A DNA stretch of 35,762 nt. Source: a virus. Made by a program: the position numbers and the translations under genes. Location: positions 1 to 35,762 of the IMG/VR virus record IMGVR_UViG_3300033153_002147; one strand, given 5' to 3'. Shown piece after piece: positions 779-25,000 of this stretch. Each line of letters starts with the position of its first letter. Within the stretch, counting starts at the first letter, position 1. The notes beneath the pieces are model-generated. The model did not search any database. It worked only from the letters and a program-made list of their open reading frames with translations, and had not been told where the DNA came from.

Positions 779-1609
779 TTATATGTATACACCCCATATT
801 ACTAGAGGCTTATTCTCTGGAAGATTCTTACCTGTTTTTCTCTTATACTCTTCTCGTTCTTTCTTTAGCCAAGATTTGGGCATATCAGTCTGACCAAATT
901 CCGTTCTAGGCTGTAGTTTCCCTCTATGAGGTCTGCTAGTGTGGGGCTTTTTAACCTCAGTTAACTTATCTCTCATAATCGTAGAAAGAGAACTCTCATT
1001 TAAGTCTTTTTTTTTACCACTAAGCTCCTCCTTAAGAAGAGTAGTAAAGTTCTTAACCTTTTGAGCGTCTGGGTAAACCCTGTCAATGATCTCTTGGATC
1101 TGAGTAGACTCAGTAAGACCGGGGTAAGCACCTCTAGTTGAAGGATCGGCCACTATATCCCAAGTAATTAATCTAAAGTCTTCGTTAACATACTTCTTAC
1201 CATCCATCTCCTCAGTTACCGTACCCATTCCACGGGAGGAGATTCCAATTTTCACACCACCATCAATAAGAGCCTTAGCCACTTTACCAGAAGGTGTGTC
1301 TAATATTTCAGCTTCACCAATAACCTCGTTACCTTTCATACTAAGACCAGTAATAAGATGAGATACATTAGAGAGCCTAACTGAATCATGTTGTGGGTGA
1401 TCAAGCTCTCCCATCAACCTTCTTTCATTCATGGCAGTAGCAAGTTTAGTAACTTCCCTTTCTAAGAGGGGCCTTTTATAAATTCTTTTGTTATTATTTT
1501 CCTCGTCTGCTCTTTGAAAACATCCTCGTATTTTCATAGGACCAGTGCCTTTCCCCTCGTTTATAACTTGCAGGTTCTCAATAATAAATACATCTTCTAA
1601 TAATCTCAT
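779..1609 (-). CDS. 21: Prohead maturation protease (T4 gp21-like)
   Basis: Serine protease of the T4 gp21 type (herpesvirus-assemblin-like fold) that cleaves scaffold, core and capsid proteins inside the prohead. The 276-residue product has the family landmarks: MGELDHP with His71, GISSRGMG with Ser124/Ser125, and WDIVADPSTRGAYPG at about 150-164. His71 and one of the two serines should be the catalytic pair; this is inferred from the family. The C-terminal 80 residues are basic and low in complexity and look dispensable for catalysis. Possible self-cleavage sites fitting (I/L)xE|(A/G) are INE|G at residue 18 and IGE|A at residue 99. The ATG overlaps the preceding stop as ATGA and has GAGGAC upstream. 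Scaffold and capsid genes follow directly. Confidence 0.93.
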   Translation of the reverse strand: MRLLEDVFIIENLQVINEGKGTGPMKIRGCFQRADEENNNKRIYKRPLLEREVTKLATAMNERRLMGELDHPQHDSVRLSNVSHLITGLSMKGNEVIGEAEILDTPSGKVAKALIDGGVKIGISSRGMGTVTEEMDGKKYVNEDFRLITWDIVADPSTRGAYPGLTESTQIQEIIDRVYPDAQKVKNFTTLLKEELSGKKKDLNESSLSTIMRDKLTEVKKPHTSRPHRGKLQPRTEFGQTDMPKSWLKKEREEYKRKTGKNLPENKPLVIWGVYI

Positions 1610-2924: not shown

Positions 2925-3902
2925 TTAGTTTGCCCGTGGGAAGTAATCATCGGGGGGTATTGGTATATTTATAAGTTTTACATGAGATAGTGCATTACCA
3001 GACTCATTAGCAATATAAAATGGATACCCACCATAGCCAGTAGGAATAGTACCAATTACGTCGCCCATATCATCATAAACAGGTGTATAAAAATCCCACC
3101 AAGTACTTCCTGTACCATTTCCTTTTATTACTCCTGTATTTTCAACATCTGACAACTCTCCAAAGGAAGGAAATCCATAAGCAGTTAATCCAACAAACGA
3201 AGAATTAACCTCATAGTTTGGGAATTGGTCTGAGACAGAAGATAAAGGAATAGGAGATTTTCTAGTGGCTAAATCTAAATCAGGAACTTTAAACTGATCT
3301 TCATCGGTTACATCCTCAAACTCTAGGGTAGGAACAATAGTTGAACCCCACTGTGTAAAGTCAGAAGTTTTTAAATTGTGAAATGCTTTTCCCTCTGCGT
3401 CAGAAGTTCTAACATAAAAAATACCATCTCCTATAGAGGTGAACTGGAAGAACTCTAGGACTGGGTAGAACCAATATTTGGGTGCAGCAGGAGAGTCTTT
3501 AGGGGCTTGTACGGTAGCCCCCTCAATCCTAATCTTGGCAACAAAATCAGCCCATACATCTGGAGAGGCAGTAATAGTTTCTGCTCCACACCCTCTAGAA
3601 TCATTAAATCTATGTATGGGTAACCCCGCTACAAAAACTGTATCCGACCCTGTGGTAGGTCCTGGGATGCCTGGGTGTATACCAGTGGGAGACTCTCCTA
3701 AAGGGTGCGTGTCATCCCCTTTTTTACTTGGGTCATTCTCCTTCCACAAACCGCACGGACCAGCAGTACCGTTCCCAGTCCCGTCTGTTATAGCAACGGC
3801 ACTCATATTTACTGTAACAGTACTATTAATACCCACCCCCTCTATAGCTATAGGGGCTCCGTTATGATCGCAAGTGTCTCCTTCTCTTGCTACTTGTGGC
3901 AT
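2925..3902 (-). CDS. PAAR-domain tail spike tip protein with long C-terminal extension
   Basis: PAAR proteins form a sharp, metal-bound cone that caps the membrane-piercing spike of contractile tails (T4 gp5.4) and type VI secretion systems. The first 115 residues fit: an N-terminal MPQVAREGDTCDHNGAP, then VNMSAVAITDGTG, then TVFVAGLPIHRFNDSRGCG. Cys11, His13, His97 and Cys105 are candidates for metal binding. The domain is longer than usual because of a Gly/Pro/His-rich insert at about 50-85. Residues 130-325 form an extension of unknown fold. It is the last gene of the tail block, one base after the cysteine-rich gene and far from the spike gene at 28114-29175. The extension might mediate attachment or carry an effector-like function; nothing recognisable supports either. 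Confidence 0.8.
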   Translation of the reverse strand: MPQVAREGDTCDHNGAPIAIEGVGINSTVTVNMSAVAITDGTGNGTAGPCGLWKENDPSKKGDDTHPLGESPTGIHPGIPGPTTGSDTVFVAGLPIHRFNDSRGCGAETITASPDVWADFVAKIRIEGATVQAPKDSPAAPKYWFYPVLEFFQFTSIGDGIFYVRTSDAEGKAFHNLKTSDFTQWGSTIVPTLEFEDVTDEDQFKVPDLDLATRKSPIPLSSVSDQFPNYEVNSSFVGLTAYGFPSFGELSDVENTGVIKGNGTGSTWWDFYTPVYDDMGDVIGTIPTGYGGYPFYIANESGNALSHVKLINIPIPPDDYFPRAN

Positions 3903-3903
3903 T

Positions 3904-6900
3904 TTACTCTAAAGGCTCCACAGGAATAGGGGTGTGACCTTCTTTAACTGGCAAGAAGGTTAAAGTTTTATCTATCTTGCCAGTATTTCCCAACCAAGTG
4001 TTGGATCTATACTCTTTAATCTTAGGGTAGTGTGCATTAACAGTATCCTCAGAGGAGGGTTTACCACTACTTAAAAGAGATTTAAATCTTTTGAAATTAG
4101 AACACTCTTTATGTAGATACTTCATTTGTGGGATACCCATCCTGTCATAAATCTCATACCACGGAATAGTATCACTAGATGGAAGCTGGTAATCATCTTT
4201 TAGCTCCTTAGCCAATTTATATACTTGTCTCTCTCCCCAAGCTACTCTTTCTGCTGGCTGCTCCCCAGAACGGTACAGGTGTTGATCACTTAAATTTTTA
4301 GTATACATGGAGTATTGTATACCCCGTAAATTTTCTACAGAAGGATTAATCCCTCTAGCTGGGTAGGCTAATTCTTCTTTTAAGAAAGTTGGGTGCCATG
4401 TATCCGACCTACCAGGGTTAGGATTTATTACTACCTGTAATTCTCTCACCCCGTAACTTGTAGATTTTGAAATATTATGTGTTACAACATTAGAAGTTAT
4501 ATTGGATGTATAGAATACCACTGTTTGTGGGGCTCTCCTAGCAATGATAGGAATATTAGGATTAATACGAGTACTTGTATCCTCAGTAAAGAGATCTAAT
4601 ACAAAATCTTTAAAGGTAATTTCTACCTGCCCATCATTATCAAAGTAACTTGGTAGAGGATCGTCCTGATCTAAATATATTTCTAAACACGGGAAAGCAG
4701 CACCAGAACCCTCAGTATTAACTTGAGAATTTCTAGCCTCTGTGCTAGTTAAATACTTATAAGTAGCTTGTGTTTTAGCAATAAGCTCATTATCCCTAGG
4801 TAAATCTTGTATAGTTCCTGGTTGTAATGCAAACATATACACATCTTTTCTAGGTGTAGTTAACCCGTATCTCTCGTCTACCCTAAGCTCTTGATCTGTT
4901 GTGACTTTTATATTAAAATCATAAACATCTCCCAACAAATACATAACTTTCTGTAACACTTCTAAACTTAGTATACCAGCCTGATTAATCAAGCTTTGCA
5001 CAGGTATTTCTACAAACCCACCATTGCTTAAAGTTATTCGTTGGAAGTCACCACTACCTAAAGTTAATGATCCACTACCATCTACTACTATAGTATCATC
5101 TATAGCGTAATATAGTGTAGTTGTGGCTCCTGTAGCAGTAGTAATAGGAAGTCCCTTTTTAAGATCCGTTGCTAAAGTTTTCCAAGTTTTCATCCTCTCT
5201 GCCACTCTAGTAATATCATAAGCATCAGGTGCCAAGGGCCATACTTTAGACATGGCAAGATCTATAGCTTCTGCCTCATTTCCTATTGTATTTAAATTTT
5301 GAATATGAGTATATTTTCTAGTCTCTTTATACTCCTCCGTCTTTTGAAAGTGTATTATCCTATCTAAAATAGCATGAAGTTGAGATGCATCAAAATACTC
5401 TAACCTATTAGAGACTATTAAATTTCTAATAGTACTAAGGAACATTCTCTTTAGATTTTTTCCTGTGGCTGCTCTAGCTAAATTTAATTTTAGGATAAGA
5501 TCATCATGAATGCTTTTCTCTAAATTAGCATTACTTAAATCGGTAAAAGGTCTATCACTAAAATTAATTCTTTTTCTAATTATATCATCGGTAGCTGTAA
5601 TTCCTACATGAATAATATCTTTAAACAAGTCTGCCCTATAATTTCCTCTATTAACCCCCACAAAAGTTGTAGGGTTTTTAGATTTAATATTACTAACATT
5701 CTTCTCGTAAATTGGGTTAATGCCACCATTCAAACCATAAATTCTCTCCCACACTGAAGATCCCCCATTTGTTGAATTCCCTGGACAATTTGTTGTTAGG
5801 TTACAATCTTTATCTGCCTCGGCTGATGGACACTCACAAGAATCATCAACTGAAGAGCATGTTGGATCATCATAAAGCCCATCACCATCACCTGTATGTG
5901 GTTCACATTTATGAGTTCTATAAGTACAATCACAGAACCCATTTTCATTTGGAGTACCATCAAGATCACATTTTGCCTCTACTTCACCTTCAGTGCAGTC
6001 CCAGGTGGGGTCAGGGTCATAACAGTTATTTGTTGGATCGGATTTACAAGCCAACTTCTGAGCAGCTTCGTCCCCTTTGTAGGTGCATGTCCCACAGGCT
6101 TTTACAACATCGCCACAACTACCTCCAGGAACGGAAGCATCGCACTCCATACACGACTCCTTACAATTGAGATTACAGTTATCCTCATCTAGCTCCGATC
6201 CAGGATGACATACCCAGTCACTAATTTTGCCATCCCAAGTAGCTTTCCCAGATACAAAGCAACATTTTCCGTCTGAACCCCAACTTGGGGAACCACACAT
6301 ATAACAATCAGGTGGTTCCCCACCAGGGGGAGGTGTAGTTGGACCACCCCCATCACCACCCGGTTTTTTCGGTGGGGTGTCTTCCCAAGTCCAACCTTTA
6401 CACGCAGGGGGGTCGTCAGCTTTGCATGCAGCATTATCCATGTAATAACCCTTGCAAGCACCATCCCACTCACATCCACCCCCACCTAAAGTATTATTTT
6501 TCCCACCACAATCCTTATAAGCATCCACATCAGTAAATTGAGTATCTTGTTTAGTACAAGGATCGTCAGTAAGATTATTGCCATCCCCTATACAGATAAA
6601 TCCTTTACAATCTACAGGCTTATAATCACAACAACCATTACATAGAGAGGTATCATTATTACATGCTTGACAACCCTTATCCCCCAGATCATCCCTACAA
6701 TCTGCTTGCGGGTTTTCACAATCAAGAGCCTCGGAATGCTCCCCATCACAAGAACCTCCAGCAGCCTGATCTGCAATAACATCATCTAAATTTTGTGGCT
6801 CATTACAAAACTTCCAAGTTAATGTACCATTACATGTTTCGTCATCGTCATCATCATCATTCGGATTTCCATCCCCGCTCCCACCAGGAGGACCATCACC

Positions 6901-6951
6901 TACAGGTAGATCTCCAGGATCTTGTAGCCAGCAAGTTAGAAAATTTGCCAT
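3904..6951 (-). CDS. Cysteine-rich virion structural protein, unknown function
   Basis: A 1015-residue protein in two very different halves. Residues 7-392 contain 43 cysteines in irregular pairs (CC, CxC, CxxC, CDCT) among Asp, Asn, Gly and Thr. There is a six-Asp run near residue 32 and a Gly/Pro linker at about 193-214. Acidic loops such as DGDGDG could bind calcium. From about residue 400 the composition becomes ordinary and only two cysteines remain (in AAFPCLEIYL and HKECSNF). This half mixes helical (430-570) and beta-rich (610-850) stretches and ends with a tyrosine-rich region. No named family is recognised. It sits between a fibre-like gene and the PAAR gene, so a baseplate-associated or adhesin role is inferred. 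No signal peptide is seen, so disulfides would form only after lysis or assembly. Confidence 0.75.
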   Translation of the reverse strand: MANFLTCWLQDPGDLPVGDGPPGGSGDGNPNDDDDDDETCNGTLTWKFCNEPQNLDDVIADQAAGGSCDGEHSEALDCENPQADCRDDLGDKGCQACNNDTSLCNGCCDYKPVDCKGFICIGDGNNLTDDPCTKQDTQFTDVDAYKDCGGKNNTLGGGGCEWDGACKGYYMDNAACKADDPPACKGWTWEDTPPKKPGGDGGGPTTPPPGGEPPDCYMCGSPSWGSDGKCCFVSGKATWDGKISDWVCHPGSELDEDNCNLNCKESCMECDASVPGGSCGDVVKACGTCTYKGDEAAQKLACKSDPTNNCYDPDPTWDCTEGEVEAKCDLDGTPNENGFCDCTYRTHKCEPHTGDGDGLYDDPTCSSVDDSCECPSAEADKDCNLTTNCPGNSTNGGSSVWERIYGLNGGINPIYEKNVSNIKSKNPTTFVGVNRGNYRADLFKDIIHVGITATDDIIRKRINFSDRPFTDLSNANLEKSIHDDLILKLNLARAATGKNLKRMFLSTIRNLIVSNRLEYFDASQLHAILDRIIHFQKTEEYKETRKYTHIQNLNTIGNEAEAIDLAMSKVWPLAPDAYDITRVAERMKTWKTLATDLKKGLPITTATGATTTLYYAIDDTIVVDGSGSLTLGSGDFQRITLSNGGFVEIPVQSLINQAGILSLEVLQKVMYLLGDVYDFNIKVTTDQELRVDERYGLTTPRKDVYMFALQPGTIQDLPRDNELIAKTQATYKYLTSTEARNSQVNTEGSGAAFPCLEIYLDQDDPLPSYFDNDGQVEITFKDFVLDLFTEDTSTRINPNIPIIARRAPQTVVFYTSNITSNVVTHNISKSTSYGVRELQVVINPNPGRSDTWHPTFLKEELAYPARGINPSVENLRGIQYSMYTKNLSDQHLYRSGEQPAERVAWGERQVYKLAKELKDDYQLPSSDTIPWYEIYDRMGIPQMKYLHKECSNFKRFKSLLSSGKPSSEDTVNAHYPKIKEYRSNTWLGNTGKIDKTLTFLPVKEGHTPIPVEPLE

Positions 6952-6964
6952 AACTTAATTAGGG

Positions 6965-9424
6965 TTAAGATGTTAATGTAATAAAATTATTGGTTCCTGC
7001 ATCAATTTTCATATTAGCAACAACAGGCTCAGGATATCCTATAATCTCAAATTTAACTGTGGGGTATGTACACCACTGACCTCTAAACATAGGAGCCGTA
7101 GCTGTGGATGCCCAGGTAACAGTTTTGTTAGCATTACCTTGTGGTAACATCCCATTCTCACTAGTTACAAATACTTTACTATAACGCTCGGTTGTTCTAT
7201 GAGACTTATCAAAAGAAACGGCTTGTCCTACGGGAAGCGGCGAACCAGATTGTTTGGCTCCAGGTCCCATATCAAATGCGTGGGTAAAATTAAGAGGGTC
7301 TCCCATATTCCAGACACAACAAATAATAAAATGGTCTATATGTTTTTCCACATATAAACCATGTGGATTCATCCATTGTGTGTGTTGATGCTGAGATGCA
7401 GTATGCCACCAATCCGCTTGCGCCTGGGAATCTGCTAGAGCGCAGTTAACGAGATTTAATCGTACATCATAATCTATCATCCACTCAGGTCGAGAACCAG
7501 GAGTAAAATCAATTCTTTTTCTTACCATAAGTGCTTGGTAACCATTAATCCTAGCATTAGCCGTGCTGTTGGCCGCTTCCCAACTAATATTCCAAGTAGG
7601 AAATTTTACATGAGATCCATAAAGAGCATCAAATGCAGTATCTTGACTTAATGGGTAAGTTGGTTCCAAAGCATCATTATAATACATATGAAATTTATCA
7701 TTTCTATGATTCGCACCATCATTAGACCAATCAGGGGTATCCCAATCTGGTTGTTGGGGTATTGTTCCTACCAAAGATTCTGGGTAATATCCCTGAGACT
7801 TTAGATAATCAGAAATACCTTTTGGGTATAAATCAGTAAGCTGGGTTCCCCCAGCCGTAGCCACATCAGCATCAGCAGCCAATCTAGCCAGTACACCTTC
7901 TACTCCGAACTTTATTCCACCAAAAATAAAACCACTTCCCACAGGTCTTGGGTATTGAGGTATCTCTGGTGGATTCTCATCTATATAATCTCTCACCTTC
8001 TCAGCAGTATCAGCTAATTGATATTTAGTAACAACTGGGTTGGCTAAAGATGCTGGTGGGTTAGCTGCTGCCAACCCTGCTCTCTCATTATAAGTAAGTT
8101 CTGCTGTACGGAAGAAAGGTCTTATATCTATAATATCTGTAGTACTTATGGTGGGAGTTCCAAATGTAGAGATAACATAAGCTATAGGAAGAACCGACTG
8201 CCCAATCATTTGAAGACTAGTTTTGGCTACCCCATCCGTTATATATGGAGCAGCATTTAACAAATCATCAGGGCTGGGGAAATTACCAAAAACACCCCCC
8301 ATACCATTTTGAGTTTGGTTTAAGTCTGATATAACAGAGGCTGTCTGCATATTTCCTTGAGTATCAAAATTACCAGACGGATCAAAATAATTAGTAGCAA
8401 TATCTATTCCATCCATATAAGTCTGACCTGTAAAGAAAGTATCGTCTATAGTTTGGTCTGCGAAAGATCCTTTTCCATTAAGAGATATTACCCCTGCCCC
8501 TTTAACTAATCCTAATGTAGGTTGATTTATTATAGTTGCACCAGTACTCTCTGGTCTAAGTATGGCAGTAGATGACGCATCAATAGGATGAGTATATATA
8601 AACAATAAATCTATTCTAACTGCTGGTACATAGTTAGTACTATTTTGATAGTCCTCAGAATCAAACATGGGAACATTTATAGTTAATTGAGTTGGCACAT
8701 TAACAATAGCTGTTCTAAATGGGGCACCATAAACTCTAGTGAATTCAACTGATAACTGCTGTAACCCTACATGAGAAGCAGTATCTGCTCCAAAATTTCT
8801 AACAGTTGTACCTTGTTTCCACAAAGCTAATTTTACTTTCTGAAGATCTAAAATTCCTTCCGAACTCTTATCATTCTGTTTAAAACTAGTATACTTATAG
8901 GTCCAATCTAAATTATACAGATTTGCTGGTGCTGTAACATTATGCTGAACAAAATCGTATAAACCATTATCTTGTAGAATATTAGTTACTATAGATCCCG
9001 CCAAAGATCTTAGAGTATTGGTAGGTGTAGTAATTTCAATTTCATTAACCATCCTGCCTGTTGCTGCTGCGGCTGTCTTTATAGCCATAGTAGATATACC
9101 CGTACCATAAGCATCATTAACTCTAGCGGTAAATCTACCTGGGGAAACAGTTACAGCCCTATCAGAACCTGTAGCAGATGGCTTTAGTTCTGCAATATCT
9201 GATCTGGAAACAGTAGCTAATTCCGTAGCCCCTACAGACACCTGATCTTTTAACCACAATAAGTTTTCTTGTAGTTGTTGGATAGGAACATTATCCACTT
9301 CCCAATAGTAAGGATCATTAGCTTTAAAAAGTCTAACGGGGTCAGTAAACTGGTGAGAACTAGGTCGATAAGTTATCTTACCTCCTCCCTGTCCTCCAGC
9401 GTAAAAGTCGTCATTATGTGTCAT
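6965..9424 (-). CDS. Virion structural protein, probable tail fibre or baseplate appendage
   Basis: An 819-residue protein. Its N-terminus holds KANDPYYWEVDNVPIQQLQE (residues 34-53). This is related to the N-terminus of the next upstream gene, which suggests both dock on the same baseplate site. The middle is rich in Thr, Asn, Ala and Val with alternating beta patterns. The C-terminal third (about 530-819) is rich in Trp, His and aromatic residues (for example WWHTASQHQHTQW), as in sugar- or receptor-binding tips. No catalytic motif is visible. Its ATG overlaps the upstream stop as TAATG. I class it as fibre-like from context and composition; the receptor-binding role of the C-terminus is inference. 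Confidence 0.65.
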   Translation of the reverse strand: MTHNDDFYAGGQGGGKITYRPSSHQFTDPVRLFKANDPYYWEVDNVPIQQLQENLLWLKDQVSVGATELATVSRSDIAELKPSATGSDRAVTVSPGRFTARVNDAYGTGISTMAIKTAAAATGRMVNEIEITTPTNTLRSLAGSIVTNILQDNGLYDFVQHNVTAPANLYNLDWTYKYTSFKQNDKSSEGILDLQKVKLALWKQGTTVRNFGADTASHVGLQQLSVEFTRVYGAPFRTAIVNVPTQLTINVPMFDSEDYQNSTNYVPAVRIDLLFIYTHPIDASSTAILRPESTGATIINQPTLGLVKGAGVISLNGKGSFADQTIDDTFFTGQTYMDGIDIATNYFDPSGNFDTQGNMQTASVISDLNQTQNGMGGVFGNFPSPDDLLNAAPYITDGVAKTSLQMIGQSVLPIAYVISTFGTPTISTTDIIDIRPFFRTAELTYNERAGLAAANPPASLANPVVTKYQLADTAEKVRDYIDENPPEIPQYPRPVGSGFIFGGIKFGVEGVLARLAADADVATAGGTQLTDLYPKGISDYLKSQGYYPESLVGTIPQQPDWDTPDWSNDGANHRNDKFHMYYNDALEPTYPLSQDTAFDALYGSHVKFPTWNISWEAANSTANARINGYQALMVRKRIDFTPGSRPEWMIDYDVRLNLVNCALADSQAQADWWHTASQHQHTQWMNPHGLYVEKHIDHFIICCVWNMGDPLNFTHAFDMGPGAKQSGSPLPVGQAVSFDKSHRTTERYSKVFVTSENGMLPQGNANKTVTWASTATAPMFRGQWCTYPTVKFEIIGYPEPVVANMKIDAGTNNFITLTS

Positions 9425-12400
9425 TACATTTCCCTCTCAACATCAAAGATATTAGTAGATGTGAAGCCCATTCCAAATGAACTTGTATCCCCAACGAAAG
9501 ATTCTCCATGTTGGGATGTAGAAGCTTTGTATATACTTACTAATCTCCTTCTACCACTGTAATTAGTATTACAATGTTTGGCATTACTAAAGGTGTTAGA
9601 AAAAGATTCATCTAAAAGTACCTGTGCATTACTATTATTTGGAAGCATAGCATGGGATCTATACCCCCCAACCAGCGAGAACCCAGTTTGCCCCGCTCCG
9701 CTCAATCCTATATGAGCAGAATCAGGCCAGTAATACCCACTTGTTGTACAAGTAGCGGGTGGCGTATGATCATCTATAGTATCATTTATAATATTAAGTA
9801 AATTTGGAAACACAGAGCTTAATGATTCCACCGCAGATACACTTCCTGACAGTGCGTATCCTTGCGCCAGATGTTGATAAGGTCTGGTATCATAACTACC
9901 CGCTCCAGCGTAACTTAATACTTTAGCCTCTGGATTAGTGGGGAAATACAATCTAAACGGACCCCTATTCTCATAGGAACTTGGGCCGTAAGTATCTACA
10001 TCCCCAGTTCTAGCTATTGAAATAGTTTTTTGCTCTACTCCCCTGTCAGCAGAATATGCAGATGACACAGCCACTCCACTCCCGTAATGATCAAGCACAG
10101 ATAATGTTCCTGTGTCTGGAGTACCAGAGAATGCTGCATACCCTACAGCACTAGAATCATTCATAAGATCTGGTTCTATTATACTACTCGCATAAAAAGA
10201 TCTGGGTCCTGTGTACCCTATCAAAGATGGATAAGATCCGCTAACCGTAGCGTAGGAAGCATTCAGTCTTGAAGTGTCCTGAACATTCCATATTTGCAAA
10301 TCATTACATCCAGCTATACTAGCTGAAGGATCAAAGAAAGATCCGTCTGCATTGTATTGCCCTGTTGGGAAGTGAACATTCCTAACAAAAATTTCACTGT
10401 CGCCAGTAGCTCTTACACACACACCTCCCCTTGTAGCTCCTGCCCTGAACTCTGAAGCTGTGTCTGCTGTACTATAGGCATTACTATATAGAACTCTATT
10501 ACATGACAATGAAACATCATATGCGTAAGCCTCGGGCCATACAACAGGAATATAATGATTATTGAAATCAGTTCCAGGTGACGCACCTCCTAAAGTTCCT
10601 ATAGCTAAATTAACATCCATAGGATTAGGATAAAATTGTAAGGCTCCTGCCTGACACAAGGAAGATAGTACACCAGAAGCGGTGAATCCGTGTGGGTTAT
10701 AATCACTAGAAGAAGTAGTAGAATCAGGCCAGAAATTTCTGAAGAATCCTAAATCCTCAAATCTTATTTGGGAGTTATTAGAAGCTATTACACATGCTCT
10801 AGTAGAGTGAATATCCAAAGAGGTATTTACAGAAAGCTCCATTCTGCCCCACCCAGACCCGTCAAGACTGCTATCATCTTCTCCAAGAACGGGACAAGCT
10901 TTTATAACTGAATTGTTATCAGCCAATATGCCTATACCATACTGAGAAATTCCTGTAGGACCCGTTATGTAAATAGTAGAATTATTGGTAGCTGCTAAAG
11001 CACTAGTTTTTGGCTGTGTGCCAAACCCAGGGGCACCTATAATATTAGTTACCCCCGTCTTAGATCCCACACCAGGATCATCAACATTTTCCCCATATCC
11101 AATCAACTTACAAACCCCACCATCATTAACTTGAATAGCGTTCCCTTTTGTGAAAGCTGTATTAATTGTACCCCCAACAGTACGAATCAGGGAGGCTGGC
11201 ATAACCGCTCTGGAATTATTAATAGAGATTGAAGGGATAGGACTTAAATTAGTGATATCATTATACCCAAAAGTAAGGTTGTATTCAAGCAAGCTATAAG
11301 CATCTGCTAAAGCTCCTACACCAATCTGGTAACTAGATAGATCCACAGGATAGTCTGGTCCATAGTAAGATCCCTCCTTAAGCCACAAGTGTCTTCTGTT
11401 CTTATTAAACATCCCTAATCTAGAAAAAGGAAGGTAATCACTACTATTGTAAATAGTAGAATTAGTACTACGAATAACTCTCTCAAAATCTGTATTTAAT
11501 ATAAACCTAGAGTTACTAAAATCAAGGCCTTCTTCTGCGGCATTTTCAATCATGAATCTACCTGTACGAATTTCAGATCCTTTCGCTTTTATATTTACTT
11601 CATTATTATAAATATCAGTGAGACCTTTGATATCGTACTCTGATGAATCAGCATATAATCCATAGTTATTGTACCCAATAGTTAAAGGAGTTAGATCTTT
11701 CATCGTTCCAACGATAACAGTTGCTGTCCCAGTTAGGTTTAGATTAGCTAATTCTCCTCCGTATAACTTAGAGTTGGTTAAATGTATTCCATAAGTGTGG
11801 AACCAAGACCCTAGACATGCTGCTGTTCCTATAGCATAATTAGGATCAGTTTTGTACTCTACTTCACTATTACTAATTTTGAATCCGTAGGTATCATTAA
11901 GTCCTCTAGTAGCTATTTCATAGTTACGCACAGCAAGATTTCTTCTTCTTAATTTTACTTTCGAATTATTTATCTCGTACCCTGCCATTGTGCATCTCAT
12001 TGCACCACAATCTTCAATAGATACATTGTTACTGTTGTAAACACCAATACCAACAGAGGTTTCATAAGCCGTAGTATCAGTATCATAACCATCAACTATA
12101 AATCCACGAACATAGATAGGCCCATCACTATTTTCTACCCTAATACGAGAAAGTTTATTAGCGGTTAAAACTCCATTAATAATTTGTTCTGCATTTTTAG
12201 GCTGCTGTCTTATTAAAACACCATCAATAGGACTTATAGTAGATACATCTAAAGTATCTATCGTTGAATCTAACTGCCCTGTAACTCCAGCCCCAGGAAA
12301 CTGATCCCCCACAATAGGACTTATATAAATATTATACAATGATTGGAATGGGGTAGTTTCTCCTACACCAGCATACGCATAAGTAGACTTAGATGGAGTA

Positions 12401-13074
12401 ACTCCACCAGTCCTACATTGACCAGTCGGGAAACCTAAAAATCTTGTAAACCCTGTAGGTACGGGGGCACCCCCACTTACGGGGAATATATCAGCGGTAT
12501 TAGCAGAAAATGCTACTGCACTAGAATTATAAAAATAGTTTATGGCTCCTGTAGCGGAAACTGTATCAGGTGTAAAGTTTACAGTATCAGCGTTAGTAGA
12601 CTCATATGTTGTCGCAGAACAAGGGTCAGTTCCAGACATATCAGACCATTCGGCTAATGGAGCAAATGCTCTATTAATAATTTCTAACGCTCCGTCCTCT
12701 TCACATTTAATATTGTTAAGATCTAGGGGGCCAATGTCCCCAGACACAGCTACCTCTATCAAAGTAGGCATTCTAATAATCTCTGGGAGAGATTCTATAG
12801 CCGCTGAAACAGAAGTGAAAACATTTGAGCTAGTGGCTAGTTGATTTGGGATAGTAGAAGATACTAGAAGTGCCATTCCAGGAACAGCAGATAAAGGATA
12901 CCCAAACTTCTCCCACAAGTAGTAGGTTCGTTCCTCTAGGTCATATAAAGGTAGGTTATCCTGCTCCCAATTATAAAAGGAAGAGGTATCATGCTTGGTT
13001 ACAAAGGGGTTCCAATAATTAAATATAGTCACTCCCCCAGAAAGTGTGTATAAGTCGTTTGAATTAAAAGCCAT
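9424..13074 (-). CDS. Tail fibre/appendage protein with right-handed beta-helix
   Basis: A 1216-residue protein. The N-terminus carries FYNWEQDNLPLYDLEE (33-48), matching the dock-like motif of the 819-residue neighbour. From about residue 310 to 900 the sequence cycles through short turns of the type N-[NS]-S-x-[IV/L]: NNSKVKLR, SNSEVEYK, TNSKLYGG, DSSEYDIKG, NNSTIYITG, SNNSQIRFE. Each turn ends a hydrophobic strand, the signature of a parallel beta-helix (pectate-lyase-like) as found in phage tailspikes and fibres. Such proteins bind or degrade surface polysaccharide, but I see no clear catalytic acid cluster, so no enzyme activity is claimed. The C-terminal 300 residues are Ser/Gly/Tyr-rich and may form the trimer tip. 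It is coupled by TAATG overlaps at both ends. Confidence 0.75.
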   Translation of the reverse strand: MAFNSNDLYTLSGGVTIFNYWNPFVTKHDTSSFYNWEQDNLPLYDLEERTYYLWEKFGYPLSAVPGMALLVSSTIPNQLATSSNVFTSVSAAIESLPEIIRMPTLIEVAVSGDIGPLDLNNIKCEEDGALEIINRAFAPLAEWSDMSGTDPCSATTYESTNADTVNFTPDTVSATGAINYFYNSSAVAFSANTADIFPVSGGAPVPTGFTRFLGFPTGQCRTGGVTPSKSTYAYAGVGETTPFQSLYNIYISPIVGDQFPGAGVTGQLDSTIDTLDVSTISPIDGVLIRQQPKNAEQIINGVLTANKLSRIRVENSDGPIYVRGFIVDGYDTDTTAYETSVGIGVYNSNNVSIEDCGAMRCTMAGYEINNSKVKLRRRNLAVRNYEIATRGLNDTYGFKISNSEVEYKTDPNYAIGTAACLGSWFHTYGIHLTNSKLYGGELANLNLTGTATVIVGTMKDLTPLTIGYNNYGLYADSSEYDIKGLTDIYNNEVNIKAKGSEIRTGRFMIENAAEEGLDFSNSRFILNTDFERVIRSTNSTIYNSSDYLPFSRLGMFNKNRRHLWLKEGSYYGPDYPVDLSSYQIGVGALADAYSLLEYNLTFGYNDITNLSPIPSISINNSRAVMPASLIRTVGGTINTAFTKGNAIQVNDGGVCKLIGYGENVDDPGVGSKTGVTNIIGAPGFGTQPKTSALAATNNSTIYITGPTGISQYGIGILADNNSVIKACPVLGEDDSSLDGSGWGRMELSVNTSLDIHSTRACVIASNNSQIRFEDLGFFRNFWPDSTTSSSDYNPHGFTASGVLSSLCQAGALQFYPNPMDVNLAIGTLGGASPGTDFNNHYIPVVWPEAYAYDVSLSCNRVLYSNAYSTADTASEFRAGATRGGVCVRATGDSEIFVRNVHFPTGQYNADGSFFDPSASIAGCNDLQIWNVQDTSRLNASYATVSGSYPSLIGYTGPRSFYASSIIEPDLMNDSSAVGYAAFSGTPDTGTLSVLDHYGSGVAVSSAYSADRGVEQKTISIARTGDVDTYGPSSYENRGPFRLYFPTNPEAKVLSYAGAGSYDTRPYQHLAQGYALSGSVSAVESLSSVFPNLLNIINDTIDDHTPPATCTTSGYYWPDSAHIGLSGAGQTGFSLVGGYRSHAMLPNNSNAQVLLDESFSNTFSNAKHCNTNYSGRRRLVSIYKASTSQHGESFVGDTSSFGMGFTSTNIFDVEREM

Positions 13075-13694: not shown

Positions 13695-15545
13695 TTACTG
13701 AGACGATGTACATCCATCTGAGGGGTCTACTTGCTCTGTGTATGGAACAGATGTATCTAGTATAGAAAACTCCCAATCAATTATATACGAAAATTCAGAT
13801 GTTTTTGTAAAAGGGCACGAAATTACTTTGTAAGCTGCTAAAAATGGAGTATCCTTTCCCCTGTCCCCATTAGGATTTTTAAGAAATAAACCAACCTCGT
13901 TTATAGTTTGAGAATTTGCCAAATTCTCATCCACCTCTAATCTAACATTTACTGTATCATCAAATAATTGTGTAGAATTATAAGACGGTATGCCCACAAA
14001 GTCTTGTGGATAATTTAAATAATAAGACTGCTCTCCATGTACTGTCTGGTTGGGTCCAGCAGAAGGTCCGTATTCCCACTGAGAACATCCCACATATGCT
14101 TGTGCCCTAGGTATAGTTTCTGGCATAAAGTGACCAGAAGGAGTTCCGTCAGTTTGTAGAACTAAATTCGAAGCAACATCAACTACTGCAACACTAGACA
14201 TAATAGGGACCAAATAGGGCACTGCTCCTTGCCCTATCAATTCTGTTCCATTTGCATAAGATTTATAAAAATTTATCATCTTATCTGAGGCACTAACCCA
14301 CGAGACTGATACTCTGTAAAAATTACCACTAGGACCAAACCCAACATTAGAGGTGTCTAGATAATCTGCCCCAGGACCAGAACTGGTGGCGTACCCAGTT
14401 AAGTGATCCGCATAAGTATATACAGGTCCATATCTATTATGGATATTACCTGATACTACACCATATTCTGATTCGGATTCCATTCCGTAAATATCACTAA
14501 ACTTAGTAGCTGCATTCCCCTTTTGTAATTCCTGCATTTGCCAACCAGAAGAAACACCTAAGATTGAGGGAGTATAAGTAGCATCAGGATTCTCATAATC
14601 ATATCTATAAAGAAAATCAGTCCTATTGTGACCCGCATAAGTAGATATCAGATTTGAGGCATATCTATTAAATATTTGTATTTTCCCTGTAAGTGGGGTG
14701 CAAGATACCGAACTATCTACTCCTGAAACATAATGAATACCAGCTACATAAGATGACCAAGTTTGGGTAGTCTTTAGTTTACTGAAATTCGTCATCAAGG
14801 AACCTTTTAAATTAGTAGTGGTATCCCCGTTATACTTATATGAAAAATTAGCCCTAATACAGGAAAAGGGGAAAGATGCGTCACCATTATCATTTATCAA
14901 ATACCTATCGGGAGTATAGGAAAATCTCCAGGAAGGAACTTTAAAATCAGGACCAGACACAGTGTAGTCAGAATAGCTAGACATAGGGGGAATTGAAATA
15001 TTAGAAGTTTCTGCGCTCCATAGGTCAGCGCACCCCACTACCCATGTGCTACTTGCGGTGGGAAAATAGTTAGCATCAGACCTACTCCCCTTTATCCCAG
15101 CGGGTTGTATAACAAAAGTATTAGTGTACTCATTCTTAGTGTTCCTAATGTCTGGGGGCTCTACAAAATTATCTACTACTTTAGTAGTCCCCAAACCAGA
15201 GGGGTATATAGAACCTAAAACATAAGTATTTTGTGGGGTAACTGCCCACTTACTATCTCTCCCATATTGTGAAATAGTTAGAGGATTTTTTAGAGTCCAA
15301 AAATAAGATTTAAAGGATGAGGAGGTAAGATCTCCTGATATATCATAAGTGCTTAAGTCATACTTTTGATTACCTAATTGATAATAACTAAACTTATAAT
15401 CATCTGTGTCTTGAGATCCACCGCCAGTAAGAACATTCACTATTGCATGCTTTACCCCTTCTGTTACTTGATTTTCCTCCTCAAGTATAACCTCTTCTTT
15501 ACCAGAAAGCTTATTTATTTGTTTTATTTTAAACTTACCTATCAT
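13695..15545 (-). CDS. Appendage/fibre protein, paralogue with large central insert
   Basis: A 616-residue protein of the same family as the 194-residue neighbour. The N-terminal cap is MIGKFKIKQINKLSGKEEVI, with ENQVTEGVKHAIVNVLTGG just after. The C-terminal cap starts with INEVGLFLKNPNG near residue 548 and continues AAYKVISCPFTKTSEFSYII to an IDWEFSIL end. Between them lie roughly 480 residues rich in Ser, Tyr, Gly and Asn with beta character and no recognised domain. I chose the ATG at 15545, which overlaps the upstream stop as ATGA and has GGTGA upstream; a longer reading from TTG at 15563 adds six residues but lacks a binding site. The likely role is a baseplate-attached fibre or receptor-binding protein; this is inferred from position and composition. 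Confidence 0.65.
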   Translation of the reverse strand: MIGKFKIKQINKLSGKEEVILEEENQVTEGVKHAIVNVLTGGGSQDTDDYKFSYYQLGNQKYDLSTYDISGDLTSSSFKSYFWTLKNPLTISQYGRDSKWAVTPQNTYVLGSIYPSGLGTTKVVDNFVEPPDIRNTKNEYTNTFVIQPAGIKGSRSDANYFPTASSTWVVGCADLWSAETSNISIPPMSSYSDYTVSGPDFKVPSWRFSYTPDRYLINDNGDASFPFSCIRANFSYKYNGDTTTNLKGSLMTNFSKLKTTQTWSSYVAGIHYVSGVDSSVSCTPLTGKIQIFNRYASNLISTYAGHNRTDFLYRYDYENPDATYTPSILGVSSGWQMQELQKGNAATKFSDIYGMESESEYGVVSGNIHNRYGPVYTYADHLTGYATSSGPGADYLDTSNVGFGPSGNFYRVSVSWVSASDKMINFYKSYANGTELIGQGAVPYLVPIMSSVAVVDVASNLVLQTDGTPSGHFMPETIPRAQAYVGCSQWEYGPSAGPNQTVHGEQSYYLNYPQDFVGIPSYNSTQLFDDTVNVRLEVDENLANSQTINEVGLFLKNPNGDRGKDTPFLAAYKVISCPFTKTSEFSYIIDWEFSILDTSVPYTEQVDPSDGCTSSQ

Positions 15546-21500: not shown

Positions 21501-22944
21501 CCCTATACTCAAATACAAATTCAGGATTTTCTAAATCAAATTTAAAATTACGAACATAAAATAAATCATTATATTTTTGTACTGCTCTCAAAAGAATATA
21601 GTCTATAACTACCCTGATATTTAAATCCATATCGGAATAACTATATTCCCCGCTAGTGTATAGTAAAGCTTGTGTAGGGGTCCATGAGGTAAACGAACTA
21701 AATAATGTGCTATCTGTATTAAGAAGATAATACATTAAATATGGGATGTACGATTCGTAAAGTTCCGCTATAGCAGAGGTCTCCATGGATGTTCCTGGAA
21801 GAACCGTAGTTATTGCATTATAAAGACCCTCCTTAGTTCCTTTCTGCTTATACAATATGACGGCATACGAAAGCTGTCTTCTCCATCCTTTAGTATTTGA
21901 TCCCCTTAATCTCCACCCTATTAGTTCAGCTACATACTTTAATAGGTGGGCAGGACATCTTTCTAATGAGTAAAGGTATTTAAGTCTTTCAGCTTCATTA
22001 TTAGTGTCGTACATAGAGTACGATACCCCCTCTATAAACTTACTCAACGGTCCTTTGCGCTCTAAAGTATCTAAAACGAAACCATTATCTATATAATCAA
22101 TAAAAGCATCTTCTACATAACTATCCTTTTCATTGAATGTTAGGTCCGGATATATAATATCAACTAAGGTGGTAAGCCTATCTAATCCCTGTGTTCCACT
22201 AGTATATTCTGCTGTGCCAGAGTAGTAAGTAGGAGATAGAAGCCCTTGCGATACGGAAGATAGAGTAGCCCAGTTCCTCCATATATAATCAGCTAATCCT
22301 TTTACTCCTGTATTAACTGAAAAGTTAGTACCTGACATATACATATCGGTTAGTGCGCTTGCAACAAACCCAGAAGGAGCTACATTATCCGCAGAAGTGT
22401 TTAGGAAGTATGCCCACCCTAATTTATTAATTAGATAATTATGAGTTCCAGAAGGTGTAGTAGAAAAAGAGCTTAATGTTGTCTCCGCTAAAGACGAGGA
22501 ATTTAAAGAAACTTTTGGTAAAAATTTCTCTTTAAAAAATGATAGAAGTTTATTATATGGAGTACCAGAAAACCCACCACCACAATCTCCACTAGAACAA
22601 TTGAACGAAGCACAGGACTGCCCCGCTACCTCCCCAGTACATAAGCCTAGTTTATGAAGAACATTAGTTTCAAAATCTATTAAATTTAGTTGTTCTGTAG
22701 TATCATTAGTATTAACAAACCATCTAGATAAACCAGATACTGTATTAATAGAAGAAAATTCTCCCACAGCAGATATATTGAGTAGAGAAGGCTGATTTAT
22801 ACAAAAGTTTATATGGGTATTAATAATATCATCAATTTGTGATACTCCCATACCACTAGTCTCTACCTCAGTTTCAAAGTATAGTGACGGTATAAGGTAA
22901 TCTAAAGCATCCTTATAATTTCTTTTGTAGTACTTTTGGGACAT
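18523..22944 (-). CDS. Giant baseplate wedge protein with tail-protein-I-like domain (gp7-like)
   Basis: The largest product in the window, 1473 residues. Residues about 310-385 contain the P2 gpI/tail-protein-I signature: ERCPAHLLKYVAELIGWRLR, then WRRQLSYAVILYKQKGTKEG and LYNAITTVLPG. In contractile systems this domain sits in the protein that clamps the gp6-type dimer in each wedge (T4 gp7). The gene directly follows the gp6-like gene, the conserved order. The rest, over 1000 residues, is beta-rich and Ser/Tyr/Asp-rich and may form the arm that carries the fibres. A four-cysteine cluster lies at 102-121 (C102, C111, C116, C121). T4 gp7 is about 1032 residues, so this is a larger version. 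The gene is linked by TAATG at both ends. Confidence 0.75.
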   Translation of the reverse strand: MSQKYYKRNYKDALDYLIPSLYFETEVETSGMGVSQIDDIINTHINFCINQPSLLNISAVGEFSSINTVSGLSRWFVNTNDTTEQLNLIDFETNVLHKLGLCTGEVAGQSCASFNCSSGDCGGGFSGTPYNKLLSFFKEKFLPKVSLNSSSLAETTLSSFSTTPSGTHNYLINKLGWAYFLNTSADNVAPSGFVASALTDMYMSGTNFSVNTGVKGLADYIWRNWATLSSVSQGLLSPTYYSGTAEYTSGTQGLDRLTTLVDIIYPDLTFNEKDSYVEDAFIDYIDNGFVLDTLERKGPLSKFIEGVSYSMYDTNNEAERLKYLYSLERCPAHLLKYVAELIGWRLRGSNTKGWRRQLSYAVILYKQKGTKEGLYNAITTVLPGTSMETSAIAELYESYIPYLMYYLLNTDSTLFSSFTSWTPTQALLYTSGEYSYSDMDLNIRVVIDYILLRAVQKYNDLFYVRNFKFDLENPEFVFEYRDRSFPIPPWEEIKFYKSCDVTTNLLKFLEDELICLGVSRPNARKFNQYVTSHTISNTDTDMFSNAFLFFTSSINIAPNESDITQSLEVDKFDYLSLWSGKSSTFNVNVSSGPFSSEFFNTSIYSSEEFFKSLSIVDEFSPAKSMPRPHVDLVDTDYSRITGYNCPSVRYWMQDRAVSGFQGGSASAGMDIASIPGAVGGDYPTPTHSSRGANDHTYLPVFKRSFVDSPIDFAQLDGSSLSAAPTSSNVFRTTMRRRNFSNNLEKGGWYSRTGFNMPSYFNVSSEGSDTDYYPLGFNIDQYRFTPVFNFKDLYEVSSWPYDDAVWSPCYGLDSLFTYSGIPVSSTFDCRGSTQLVKSSCDDYIRRDRPPEFTLFLHKLLDKKYTKEAERIYEVNKFLIDTSSFINPVQSVINSLWNSNTVSLDTYYNSILGKRIFSIGSIDGMHKLFKDYISYFTNTGIGNGLLETYKDGGANILSHTYGPLFLNGYFTVDGSAVSVDPKLISTGISEVSSYTIPQLSSLGNITITSVDDMPVEGNEVRNPYVLSGVELVDLSSGSTKFSVYNLDASNSATTRDNYNIDNPIVVIDSLGHFPRMRFNLKDYGEFENFILPDRDYTFSLNAAVGNLNSKTLGGGSFGVWIHTDVESDSVGNKVFWNFMPNGEWNMLDANILQSKGAVNLVKNSLSHYLDYSTLHEAVSTDECFVESNNKDIIKILQKSDFTSRSFTFNTNNPKIKLSLPYYQSHNQVHRNSQNYIVEVFLNTNSNPDKYSIFDNISVIDERQYSRTSVKHPIHYNTYKLSETIPTTYFVYYDSLGVAIPEGTQLSAGPEGDIVTAGGDKVTVHADESLNVGKLYSQLTLTSKGLWIKDELLATYQIKSTLYDGLFTIGTDGQPEILTKDSTIKSITIVGKTLGSHIQINELLDVPLDPEEVLIMLREFKRLQAESASRDKAISAAEYGPEGGSRLNYRDAPMWGNGSVLFEESARQYSKVRVEN

Positions 22945-24560
22945 TAAACTAAAGCTATATTTACCGAAACATTATTTAATTGAATAATTTCATTAAACTC
23001 AACATGGACATTAGAAGACATGTTATCAATAGAAGAGAATCTTACATCATCTGTTTCAAAAATTTCTCTATTTAAATCTGAAAGAATTAAAGGATCTCCA
23101 AAATCCCAATTGTCAGCTAAAAAATAACTCTGTATTCTATTTGCTACCCTATTAGATACTGTTGTTCCCAACCCTTCAAACTTCTTGTCTACAGTAATCG
23201 TAACTATTAGATCCAGAGTTCTTATTAGACCATCTACCAATACAATATCATCTGTTATCATTTTTTTACTCCCTAAATCTGATAATAAAGCATTTTTAAA
23301 TGATAAAGAAGCTTTTTGAAATTGGGTAGAACTAGCTTTCTCTAATAGGTATAAATCTATGATATTAGCAGAAGAGAATGCTTCTCTAGTAACAGCTACA
23401 GCCTTACCAGTAGTCCCAAGAGGGGAGGTAAATCTATTGGCATAAGCTCTATAATCGTCTAAAGATACTACTCTATCTTGAGTTTTGAAGAATAAGGGGC
23501 CGTATTTTTTGGCATGGTCTTTAGTCTCTGCGTCTGCCCCCCCAGTGGCTAAAGAATTTTGAACCACTCGTATACCAGTTCCAGTAACAGCATTGTACAT
23601 TCCCGTTCCTACAGTATTTAAAAAGTTATTAGGAATATTGCCTCTGGTTCCCCCACCTACTCTATAGGTTATGGTATACGAAGCTAATGACGGTGGTGAT
23701 ACCCCATTACTCCCATCCCCAAATAAAATGTTTGCAGTATAATCATCAGTGTACACTACTTCAAAAATTTTATCGTCTGTGGAAGAGGCTTGGTATAAAT
23801 TATTTACTTGTCTATATGCACCATTAGCTTGAGGAGTTTCTGTAGAAGTTACATAAACCTGCACACTATTTTGTACTACTGGGCTTTCCTCTAAAACTAC
23901 AGATTTAAAAGTATTTATACTCGTAAAAGTTCCACTTTGTACAGCAAAAGCACCTTCTAGTAAAACACCTTCAGCATAGTTCCCTGAAGAGAAGCTTGCC
24001 ACAGAAGAAGTAAATGAAATGGTTCCATTACTATTTACAGCATCTATCATACCAGTGCTTTGTCTATACAATGTAAATGTAAGAGGTTCTCCATCCTCAG
24101 GAGAAGTTACCGTGAATACTCTTTCAGAGGGCTGTAATGTTAATGTGTTGTCGATTTCAGTAACCCCATCAACAGAAATATCAACTGTGGCTTGGGAAGA
24201 AGTGGGACCATTCAAAGAAATTCCAACAAGCTTAAACAGCTTTCTTACGCTATCTATATCCTTAGCGGTAGTTATAAAGTTTTCATTAGCTAACATATCT
24301 GATTTTAATGACATTACTGCTCCCATATAAGAAACAAGCTCTATAAGCATTAGCCCCAAATCAGACTCTACAAAGTTATTATACTCTAAAGGGTAAACTG
24401 CGCGTATATAGTTCATTAAAGATTCTCTCAAAGTAGCAAAATCCGTAGATCCGTAATCAATATAAGTATCTTTTAAGGAATCTGGTATTTGTGCTAATCT
24501 TTGAAAGTCAGAAGCTACTGTAGTGAATGGTACTGCTCTACTAGAATACGGGTTGCTCAT
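22944..24560 (-). CDS. 6: Baseplate wedge protein, gp6/J-like
   Basis: Core wedge subunit; in T4 two copies of gp6 per wedge form the iris ring that opens when the sheath contracts. The 538-residue product has the family layout. A helical N-terminus (LESDLGLMLIELVSYMGAVM-like, residues 64-83) is followed by a beta-rich middle. The baseplate J-like core has LFGDGSNGVSPP (279-290) and TYRVGGGTRGN (298-308), then GGADAETKDHAKKYGP and QDRVVSLDDY (361-370). The length is slightly below T4 gp6 (660). The ATG overlaps the gp25 stop as ATGA, and AAAGG is present upstream. The gp25-gp6-gp7 order is that of contractile injection systems generally. Confidence 0.9.
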   Translation of the reverse strand: MSNPYSSRAVPFTTVASDFQRLAQIPDSLKDTYIDYGSTDFATLRESLMNYIRAVYPLEYNNFVESDLGLMLIELVSYMGAVMSLKSDMLANENFITTAKDIDSVRKLFKLVGISLNGPTSSQATVDISVDGVTEIDNTLTLQPSERVFTVTSPEDGEPLTFTLYRQSTGMIDAVNSNGTISFTSSVASFSSGNYAEGVLLEGAFAVQSGTFTSINTFKSVVLEESPVVQNSVQVYVTSTETPQANGAYRQVNNLYQASSTDDKIFEVVYTDDYTANILFGDGSNGVSPPSLASYTITYRVGGGTRGNIPNNFLNTVGTGMYNAVTGTGIRVVQNSLATGGADAETKDHAKKYGPLFFKTQDRVVSLDDYRAYANRFTSPLGTTGKAVAVTREAFSSANIIDLYLLEKASSTQFQKASLSFKNALLSDLGSKKMITDDIVLVDGLIRTLDLIVTITVDKKFEGLGTTVSNRVANRIQSYFLADNWDFGDPLILSDLNREIFETDDVRFSSIDNMSSNVHVEFNEIIQLNNVSVNIALV

Positions 24561-25000
24561 AATTTTACCTTTATATTTATAATATCTGTTGATTTAACTG
24601 GGGACACCGATACCTGAACCTCTATCCCAGGCATCCCAAAACCATGTAAGTTATCGCTTTGAAAAAATCTAATACGATTAACTTTAATATTTGGAGCATA
24701 TCTAGTTAAACCACTTTTAATTTCACTAGCCAGTATCCCCGCTAAAACATTAGTAAAAGGCTCAAATACAAAATTCATTAAGGTTGTACCAAAATCAGGT
24801 AACATAAGTCGTTCCCCTTTTTTAGTTAAAATAAATTGAGTTATCTGATCTTTAATTAATGAATAACCAGTAGACTGACTAAAATAAGGAATAGAGGAAG
24901 ATCTGCTAGAGGGCCATTGTAAACCTATAGTCTTAGACTTAGGACCAGATATGATACCCTCTTTAACTATATTAGTAGCTACTTTTCCATATAATACCAT
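24557..25000 (-). CDS. 25: Baseplate wedge protein gp25 (gpW/gp25 family)
   Basis: Short wedge core protein that links the wedge to the first sheath ring. The 147-residue length matches the family, and the hallmark segment is present at 58-80: LTKKGERLMLPDFGTTLMNF followed by VFEP. The C-terminus (GIEVQVSVSPVKSTDIINI) is the expected final beta sheet. The family is sometimes labelled lysozyme-like, but no catalytic residues are evident and no enzyme role is claimed. The stop overlaps the gp6 start as ATGA, so wedge subunits are likely made in balanced amounts. Confidence 0.92.
   Translation of the reverse strand: MVLYGKVATNIVKEGIISGPKSKTIGLQWPSSRSSSIPYFSQSTGYSLIKDQITQFILTKKGERLMLPDFGTTLMNFVFEPFTNVLAGILASEIKSGLTRYAPNIKVNRIRFFQSDNLHGFGMPGIEVQVSVSPVKSTDIINIKVKL

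Follow-up and report, generated by a model that had tools for sequence, protein, structure and literature searches.

The window analysed here is the whole of a 35,762-nucleotide IMG/VR virus fragment (IMGVR_UViG_3300033153_002147), in which a gene encoding an unusually cysteine-rich protein lies on the minus strand (Table 1). Reading along the gene order, an RCC1-repeat gene is followed by genes for proteins of 622 aa and 194 aa, the beta-helix-like 1216-aa protein, the 819-aa protein and, last of the series, the cysteine-rich protein, after which comes the PAAR gene; the cysteine-rich gene thus sits in a tail-adhesin block between the baseplate wedge genes and the PAAR gene. The gp21-like protease shows about 36% identity to Synechococcus myoviruses, and the relatives of the gp6-like protein are distant (about 22-26% identity among the matches listed, which come from a 595-kb uncultured phage and marine cyanophages among others). 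A relative contig, G002, goes on with head-tail adaptor, tail sheath, tail tube and head protease genes. Together, the gp25/gp6-like, PAAR and gp21-like genes and the sheath and tube genes of G002 indicate a T4-like contractile-tailed phage. RCC1 repeats are an uncommon domain for a phage tail gene. The same N-terminal motif recurs in the adjacent 1216-aa and 819-aa tail proteins (FYNWEQDNLPLYDLEER / YYWEVDNVPIQQLQE) and may be an attachment segment that they have in common.

Table 1. Features of the tail locus and of the cysteine-rich gene, in window coordinates.
Feature	Position	Strand	Description
T4 gp21-like head maturation protease	779..1609	minus	phrog_207 E 1.4e-52
PAAR-repeat spike-tip-like protein, downstream neighbour	2925..3902	minus	phrog_281 E 1.5e-7; Pfam PAAR E 0.003
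Cysteine-rich gene, whole, ATG start	3904-6951	minus	1015 aa, 45 Cys
Conserved C-terminal region, aa 397-1015	3907..5763	minus	two Cys; matches no known family
Hypervariable cysteine-rich module, aa 38-396	5764..6840	minus	42 Cys (even)
Alignable first part of module, aa 38-182	6406..6840	minus	14 invariant Cys across five relatives
Conserved N-terminal peptide, aa 1-37	6841..6951	minus	MANF[LI]TCWL[QK]DPGDLP.GDGPPGG..., Pro/Gly/Asp-rich, isolated Cys7
819-aa tail-region protein, upstream neighbour	6965..9424	minus	synteny conserved in L002, L006, L007, L020
1216-aa beta-helix-like protein, upstream	9424..13074	minus	Pfam Beta_helix E 0.0016, below curated cut-off
993-aa tail-region protein with RCC1 repeats	15542-18523	minus	Pfam RCC1_2 E 2.5e-24
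T4 gp6-like and gp25-like baseplate wedge genes	22944..25000	minus	phrog_219 E 8.8e-34, phrog_261 E 9.4e-13

Exploring the encoded protein, we found 43 cysteines in the first 400 residues and two, C755 and C950, in the remaining 615, confirming the counts given in a first-pass annotation for a cysteine-rich module of about 390 residues; all 43 (aa 7 to 389) fall within positions 5776-6933, which encode aa 7-392. The Asp/Asn/Gly-rich setting described there was borne out as well (59 Asp, 53 Gly and 26 Asn in aa 1-400). The claim of many CC, CxC and CxxC pairs did not survive comparison with random placement, as the module carries two CC (4.8 expected), two CxC (4.3) and five CxxC (3.8), i.e. 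CC and CxC are rarer than chance and CxxC is about at chance. Of the four modules tested, three (window, L002 and L007) had their cysteines spaced more evenly than random placement would give. Cysteine makes up 11-13% of the module and 0-2.4% of the other 21 minus-strand genes scanned in the window, indicating that cysteine richness is a property of the module and ruling out a phage-wide trait. A tandem repeat array was also rejected as a description of the module, given that a clear internal repeat was present only in L020 (CWKC..., twice, E 7e-7), that the repeat in the window was marginal (E 0.009) and that no nucleotide tandem array was found in the gene. The possibility that a frameshift or another artefact had created the cysteine-rich frame, which the annotation had raised, was ruled out by the long homologous open frames of the complete relatives (1015-1223 aa), by in-frame substitutions in the cysteine-rich part and by dN/dS values below 1 in most comparisons (0.2-0.5 in the first part of the module). 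The frame is genuine, coding and under constraint.

Relatives of the module protein were found only in a few IMG/VR contigs. Two are complete, L002 (1223 aa, 67 Cys) and L020 (1142 aa, 64 Cys), of which the latter has a near-identical copy in L021; L007 and L003 are N- and C-terminal parts from one metagenome that meet within one codon, L006 comprises the N-terminal part only and L022 is partial. Nothing credible came from 50,697 phage records searched by tblastn with the window protein and two relatives, from two scans of GTDB genome contigs or from PDB searches with four queries or profiles, and a profile of the first part of the module had no PDB match at E 5. Pfam, NCBIfam and PHROGs gave no credible match to the module, and no profile of an EGF, zinc-finger or other catalogued cysteine-rich family matched it, in agreement with the earlier remark that it belongs to no repeat family that can be named. 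No description of such a module was found in the open literature that we searched. A second cysteine-rich protein, of about 400 aa with 24 Cys and adjoining a Laminin_G_3 protein, is encoded by a relative of the window phage (L027, 3210-4409, minus strand, contig 3300037634_002466); it has no match in Pfam or PHROGs.

Comparison of the relatives divides the protein into two conserved ends and a variable module whose cysteines are conserved. The N-terminal peptide is 84-100% identical among relatives and the C-terminal region, of about 620 aa, is 63-64% identical (99.8% between L002 and L003), whereas the module between them is 26-59% identical and varies in length from about 360 to 565 aa. In the first part of the module, 14 cysteines are invariant across five relatives, and the only other invariant positions are G42, T45, P52, G117 and D179. 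When cysteine was given no weight in the alignment (neutral scoring), L002 and L006 retained 14 of 14 cysteines over aa 41-176 at 55% identity of the other residues, and L002 and L007 retained 24 of 26 aligned cysteines over aa 191-420 against 57% of the other residues; with BLOSUM62 the latter comparison gave 27 of 28, identity of the other residues being 57-58% across the two scorings. For the most divergent pairs, neutral scoring aligned 5-7 cysteines where about 1.5 are expected by chance, and all 14 align in the most distant pairs only with cysteine weighted, making the full set less certain there. The cysteines of the module are therefore kept while the rest diverges. Poor conservation of the cysteines among homologues, which the annotation had set out as grounds for dismissing the module, was not what we observed, as the cysteines are its best conserved residues.

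The most informative point, absent from the earlier annotation, is that the module is an exchangeable hypervariable cassette. Contigs G001 and G004, carrying L002 and L007, respectively, share 99.44% identity along a 16.4-kb stretch of tail genes that reaches to about codon 50 of the cysteine-rich gene; inside the module, alignment is lost for about 0.4 kb and then resumes at 79% for 1 kb, and near identity is regained between G001 and G002 (99.2% over 5.6 kb). Over about 22 kb of tail and head genes, the two contig sets are thus 99.2-99.4% identical and differ radically only in the module; the comparison represents one assembled contig pair, the second set being split into two contigs whose junction falls inside the module and lacks one codon. 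The swapped stretch, aa 38-180, is 35% identical with its cysteines kept, and shows a dN of 0.79 and saturated dS, whereas no gene elsewhere exceeds 0.024 in dS or 0.011 in dN. This jump in synonymous divergence points to an imported allele and not to fast point mutation, and we conclude that one allele took the place of another in phages that are otherwise nearly identical, with no change to either end of the gene. Known tail host-range cassettes behave in this way, their middle being exchanged between near-identical phages. The divergent L007 allele is 33% identical to L002 and 26-30% identical to each of L020, the window and L006; none of these three is closer, which indicates that the donor is unsampled. 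Between G001 and G003 dS is mostly 0.5-1.0 throughout, and at such comparable dS the module changes faster, its dN of 0.33 lying above the 0.06-0.18 of all other genes. The variable locus is not the module in every case. L020 and L022 (contigs 3300037634_002466 and 3300025131_000256) are identical but for one base over aa 1-282 of the cysteine module and about 99.8% identical elsewhere, and it is the middle of their beta-helix gene that has been replaced instead, with about 60-94% identity per 500 bp over L020 4000-6900, confined to the mid-gene part of the homologue of 9424-13074. At least two tail regions of these phages thus behave as exchangeable cassettes, the module being one of them. 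Separately, contig ends of two independent assemblies (L007 13018 / L003 1; L006 11950) lie within the cysteine-rich module, as would be expected if several alleles coexist in a sample.

The pattern in which cysteines are gained and lost bears on their chemistry. Leaving out Cys7, the three complete modules hold 42, 64 and 62 cysteines, all even numbers, the split L007/L003 module (56 + 9 Cys; the contig junction lacks one codon) standing outside this set. L007 C46 and C65 are both found in L007 and L020 and are both absent from the window, L002 and L006; likewise, a two-cysteine excess formed by a CxxC near 94-97 plus C107 is found in the window and L020 and is absent from L002, L006 and L007, the exact column of one partner depending on alignment settings. 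This apparent pairwise gain and loss, resting on these two cases, is what disulfides predict, and the scarcity of CC and CxC points the same way. The cysteines of the module likely form disulfides; given that the cytoplasm is reducing, oxidation would likely follow lysis. The annotation had also offered a metal-bound module. Such a module, with zinc or iron-sulfur clusters or metallothionein-like, would fold in the reducing cytoplasm, where thiolate-metal sites are favored over disulfides, and cysteines and acidic residues are indeed plentiful. Metal sites, however, would predict ligand groups, enrichment of CxC, CC or CxxC, or histidine, and none of these was seen: the pair counts given above show no enrichment, the 400 aa of the cysteine-rich part contain only 4 His, and the cysteine counts are even and appear to change in twos, not fours. 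Pfam zinc or cluster domains were absent even at E 10 in the relatives and at E 1 in the window protein. We consider a metal-binding module improbable. The annotation's other reading, of an adhesin hardened by disulfides after release, is supported as a prediction.

Structure prediction did not add to this. AlphaFold returned a pLDDT of 29 for the full protein (5 sequences) and of 31 for the C-terminal region (4 sequences), both unusable; neither run showed a binding fold, and the first and last thirds of the C-terminal region are helix-rich in the low-confidence AF2 prediction (pLDDT 31).

The closest parallels are the receptor-binding cassettes of tailed-phage fibres and tailspikes, which share with the present gene conserved ends, a divergent exchangeable middle, a place in a tail-adhesin block and swapping in a near-identical background. 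Known fibre and tailspike cassettes are mostly cysteine-poor trimeric beta folds that carry their variable part C-terminally, whereas the present module is N-terminal, about 360-565 aa long and framed by cysteines. The targets of diversity-generating retroelements in phage tail proteins likewise present a variable binding surface on a constant frame. Variation in length and synonymous sites at saturation set the module family apart from them; both are expected of allele import and argue against such a retroelement. No reverse transcriptase was found among the scanned window proteins, the genomes being fragments. Agrobacterium phage Milano has a contractile tail with extensive disulfides and cysteine-rich structural proteins (PMC10811340), and in the window phage, too, the module belongs to a tail-region protein of a contractile-tailed phage. 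In Milano, however, cysteine amounts to 2.1% across conserved sheath, baseplate and fibre proteins, while in the window phage a single hypervariable module reaches 11-13% amid otherwise cysteine-poor structural proteins. In two methanogen/methanotroph viruses, tail spikes were among the proteins richest in cysteine (PMC9723712). Among phage records, the best-covering gp6 match is in the 595-kb uncultured phage LR756511.1, which also carries a cysteine-rich open frame in its tail region (L008 13327-15348, minus strand; 674 aa, 31 Cys); this frame is unrelated in sequence to the module and includes a run of near-identical [PT]SFDC[IV]SFC-type repeats, regular in the manner of PSFDCISFC; a homologue of the C-terminal region was looked for in that genome and not found.

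Taken together, we propose with moderate confidence that the gene product belongs to the tail or baseplate of a T4-like contractile phage and presents a disulfide-framed variable host-contact module. The annotation had described the module as fused to a phage structural protein; it is joined to a protein of a phage tail locus, and its genomic position suggests a place in the virion. The module would be displayed between the conserved N-terminal peptide and the conserved C-terminal region, and its cysteines would pair into disulfides, probably after lysis, so as to hold short hydrophilic loops. These loops may bind a variable host surface structure, in which case allelic exchange of the module would change host range. 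The module would then work like known exchangeable tail adhesin tips on a framework that is unusual for phage tails and matches no known family. More tentatively, and somewhat short of an even chance in our judgment, it may represent a new class of recognition module, in which a disulfide framework of 42-64 cysteines, oxidized only after release, tolerates near-total loop replacement and length changes and is exchanged as alleles.

Other roles for a disulfide-rich part were weighed against host contact. The module might be a virion-stabilizing cover or spacer with no receptor role, varying because only its cysteine framework matters; cysteines conserved with little else, Asp/Gly-rich hydrophilic loops suited to a spacer and the disulfide network that stabilizes the tail of Milano and blocks contraction (PMC10811340) would all agree with such armour. 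Relaxed constraint alone, however, would not give saturated dS in a 99.4%-identical background, which needs allele import and suggests selection for novelty, and it is hard to see why an inert spacer should be the sole part swapped in near-identical phages, leaving this possibility rather unlikely. The need for the baseplate and sheath disulfides of Milano to be reduced before contraction (PMC10811340), and the position of the gene next to PAAR in a baseplate locus, could also suggest a redox-sensing latch that disulfides keep shut and that reduction at the cell surface would open, thereby gating baseplate triggering. We regard this as very unlikely, as a latch needs few conserved, often inter-chain cysteines and not 42-64 in a part of changing length, and the cysteine-poor neighbours offer few partners. 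The adjacent PAAR gene is compatible with a tail-delivered effector, whose N-terminal part would be injected with the tip and fold in the oxidizing periplasm, an environment that suits disulfide-rich folds; yet the module matches no family of toxins or enzymes and is attached, with no recognized cleavage site, to a large conserved region, and its variability in a near-identical phage background fits recognition better, so that we give an effector hardly any credence.

If the host-contact reading is true, a disulfide-framed variable module takes the place of the usual cysteine-poor beta-fibre tip in some uncultured contractile-tailed phages. It would bear on how a protein with more than 40 cysteines can be produced under the reducing conditions of the cytoplasm and mature once the cell has lysed, would provide a natural scaffold tolerant of loop replacement, and would supply a marker by which to follow host-range alleles in phages seen only in metagenomes.
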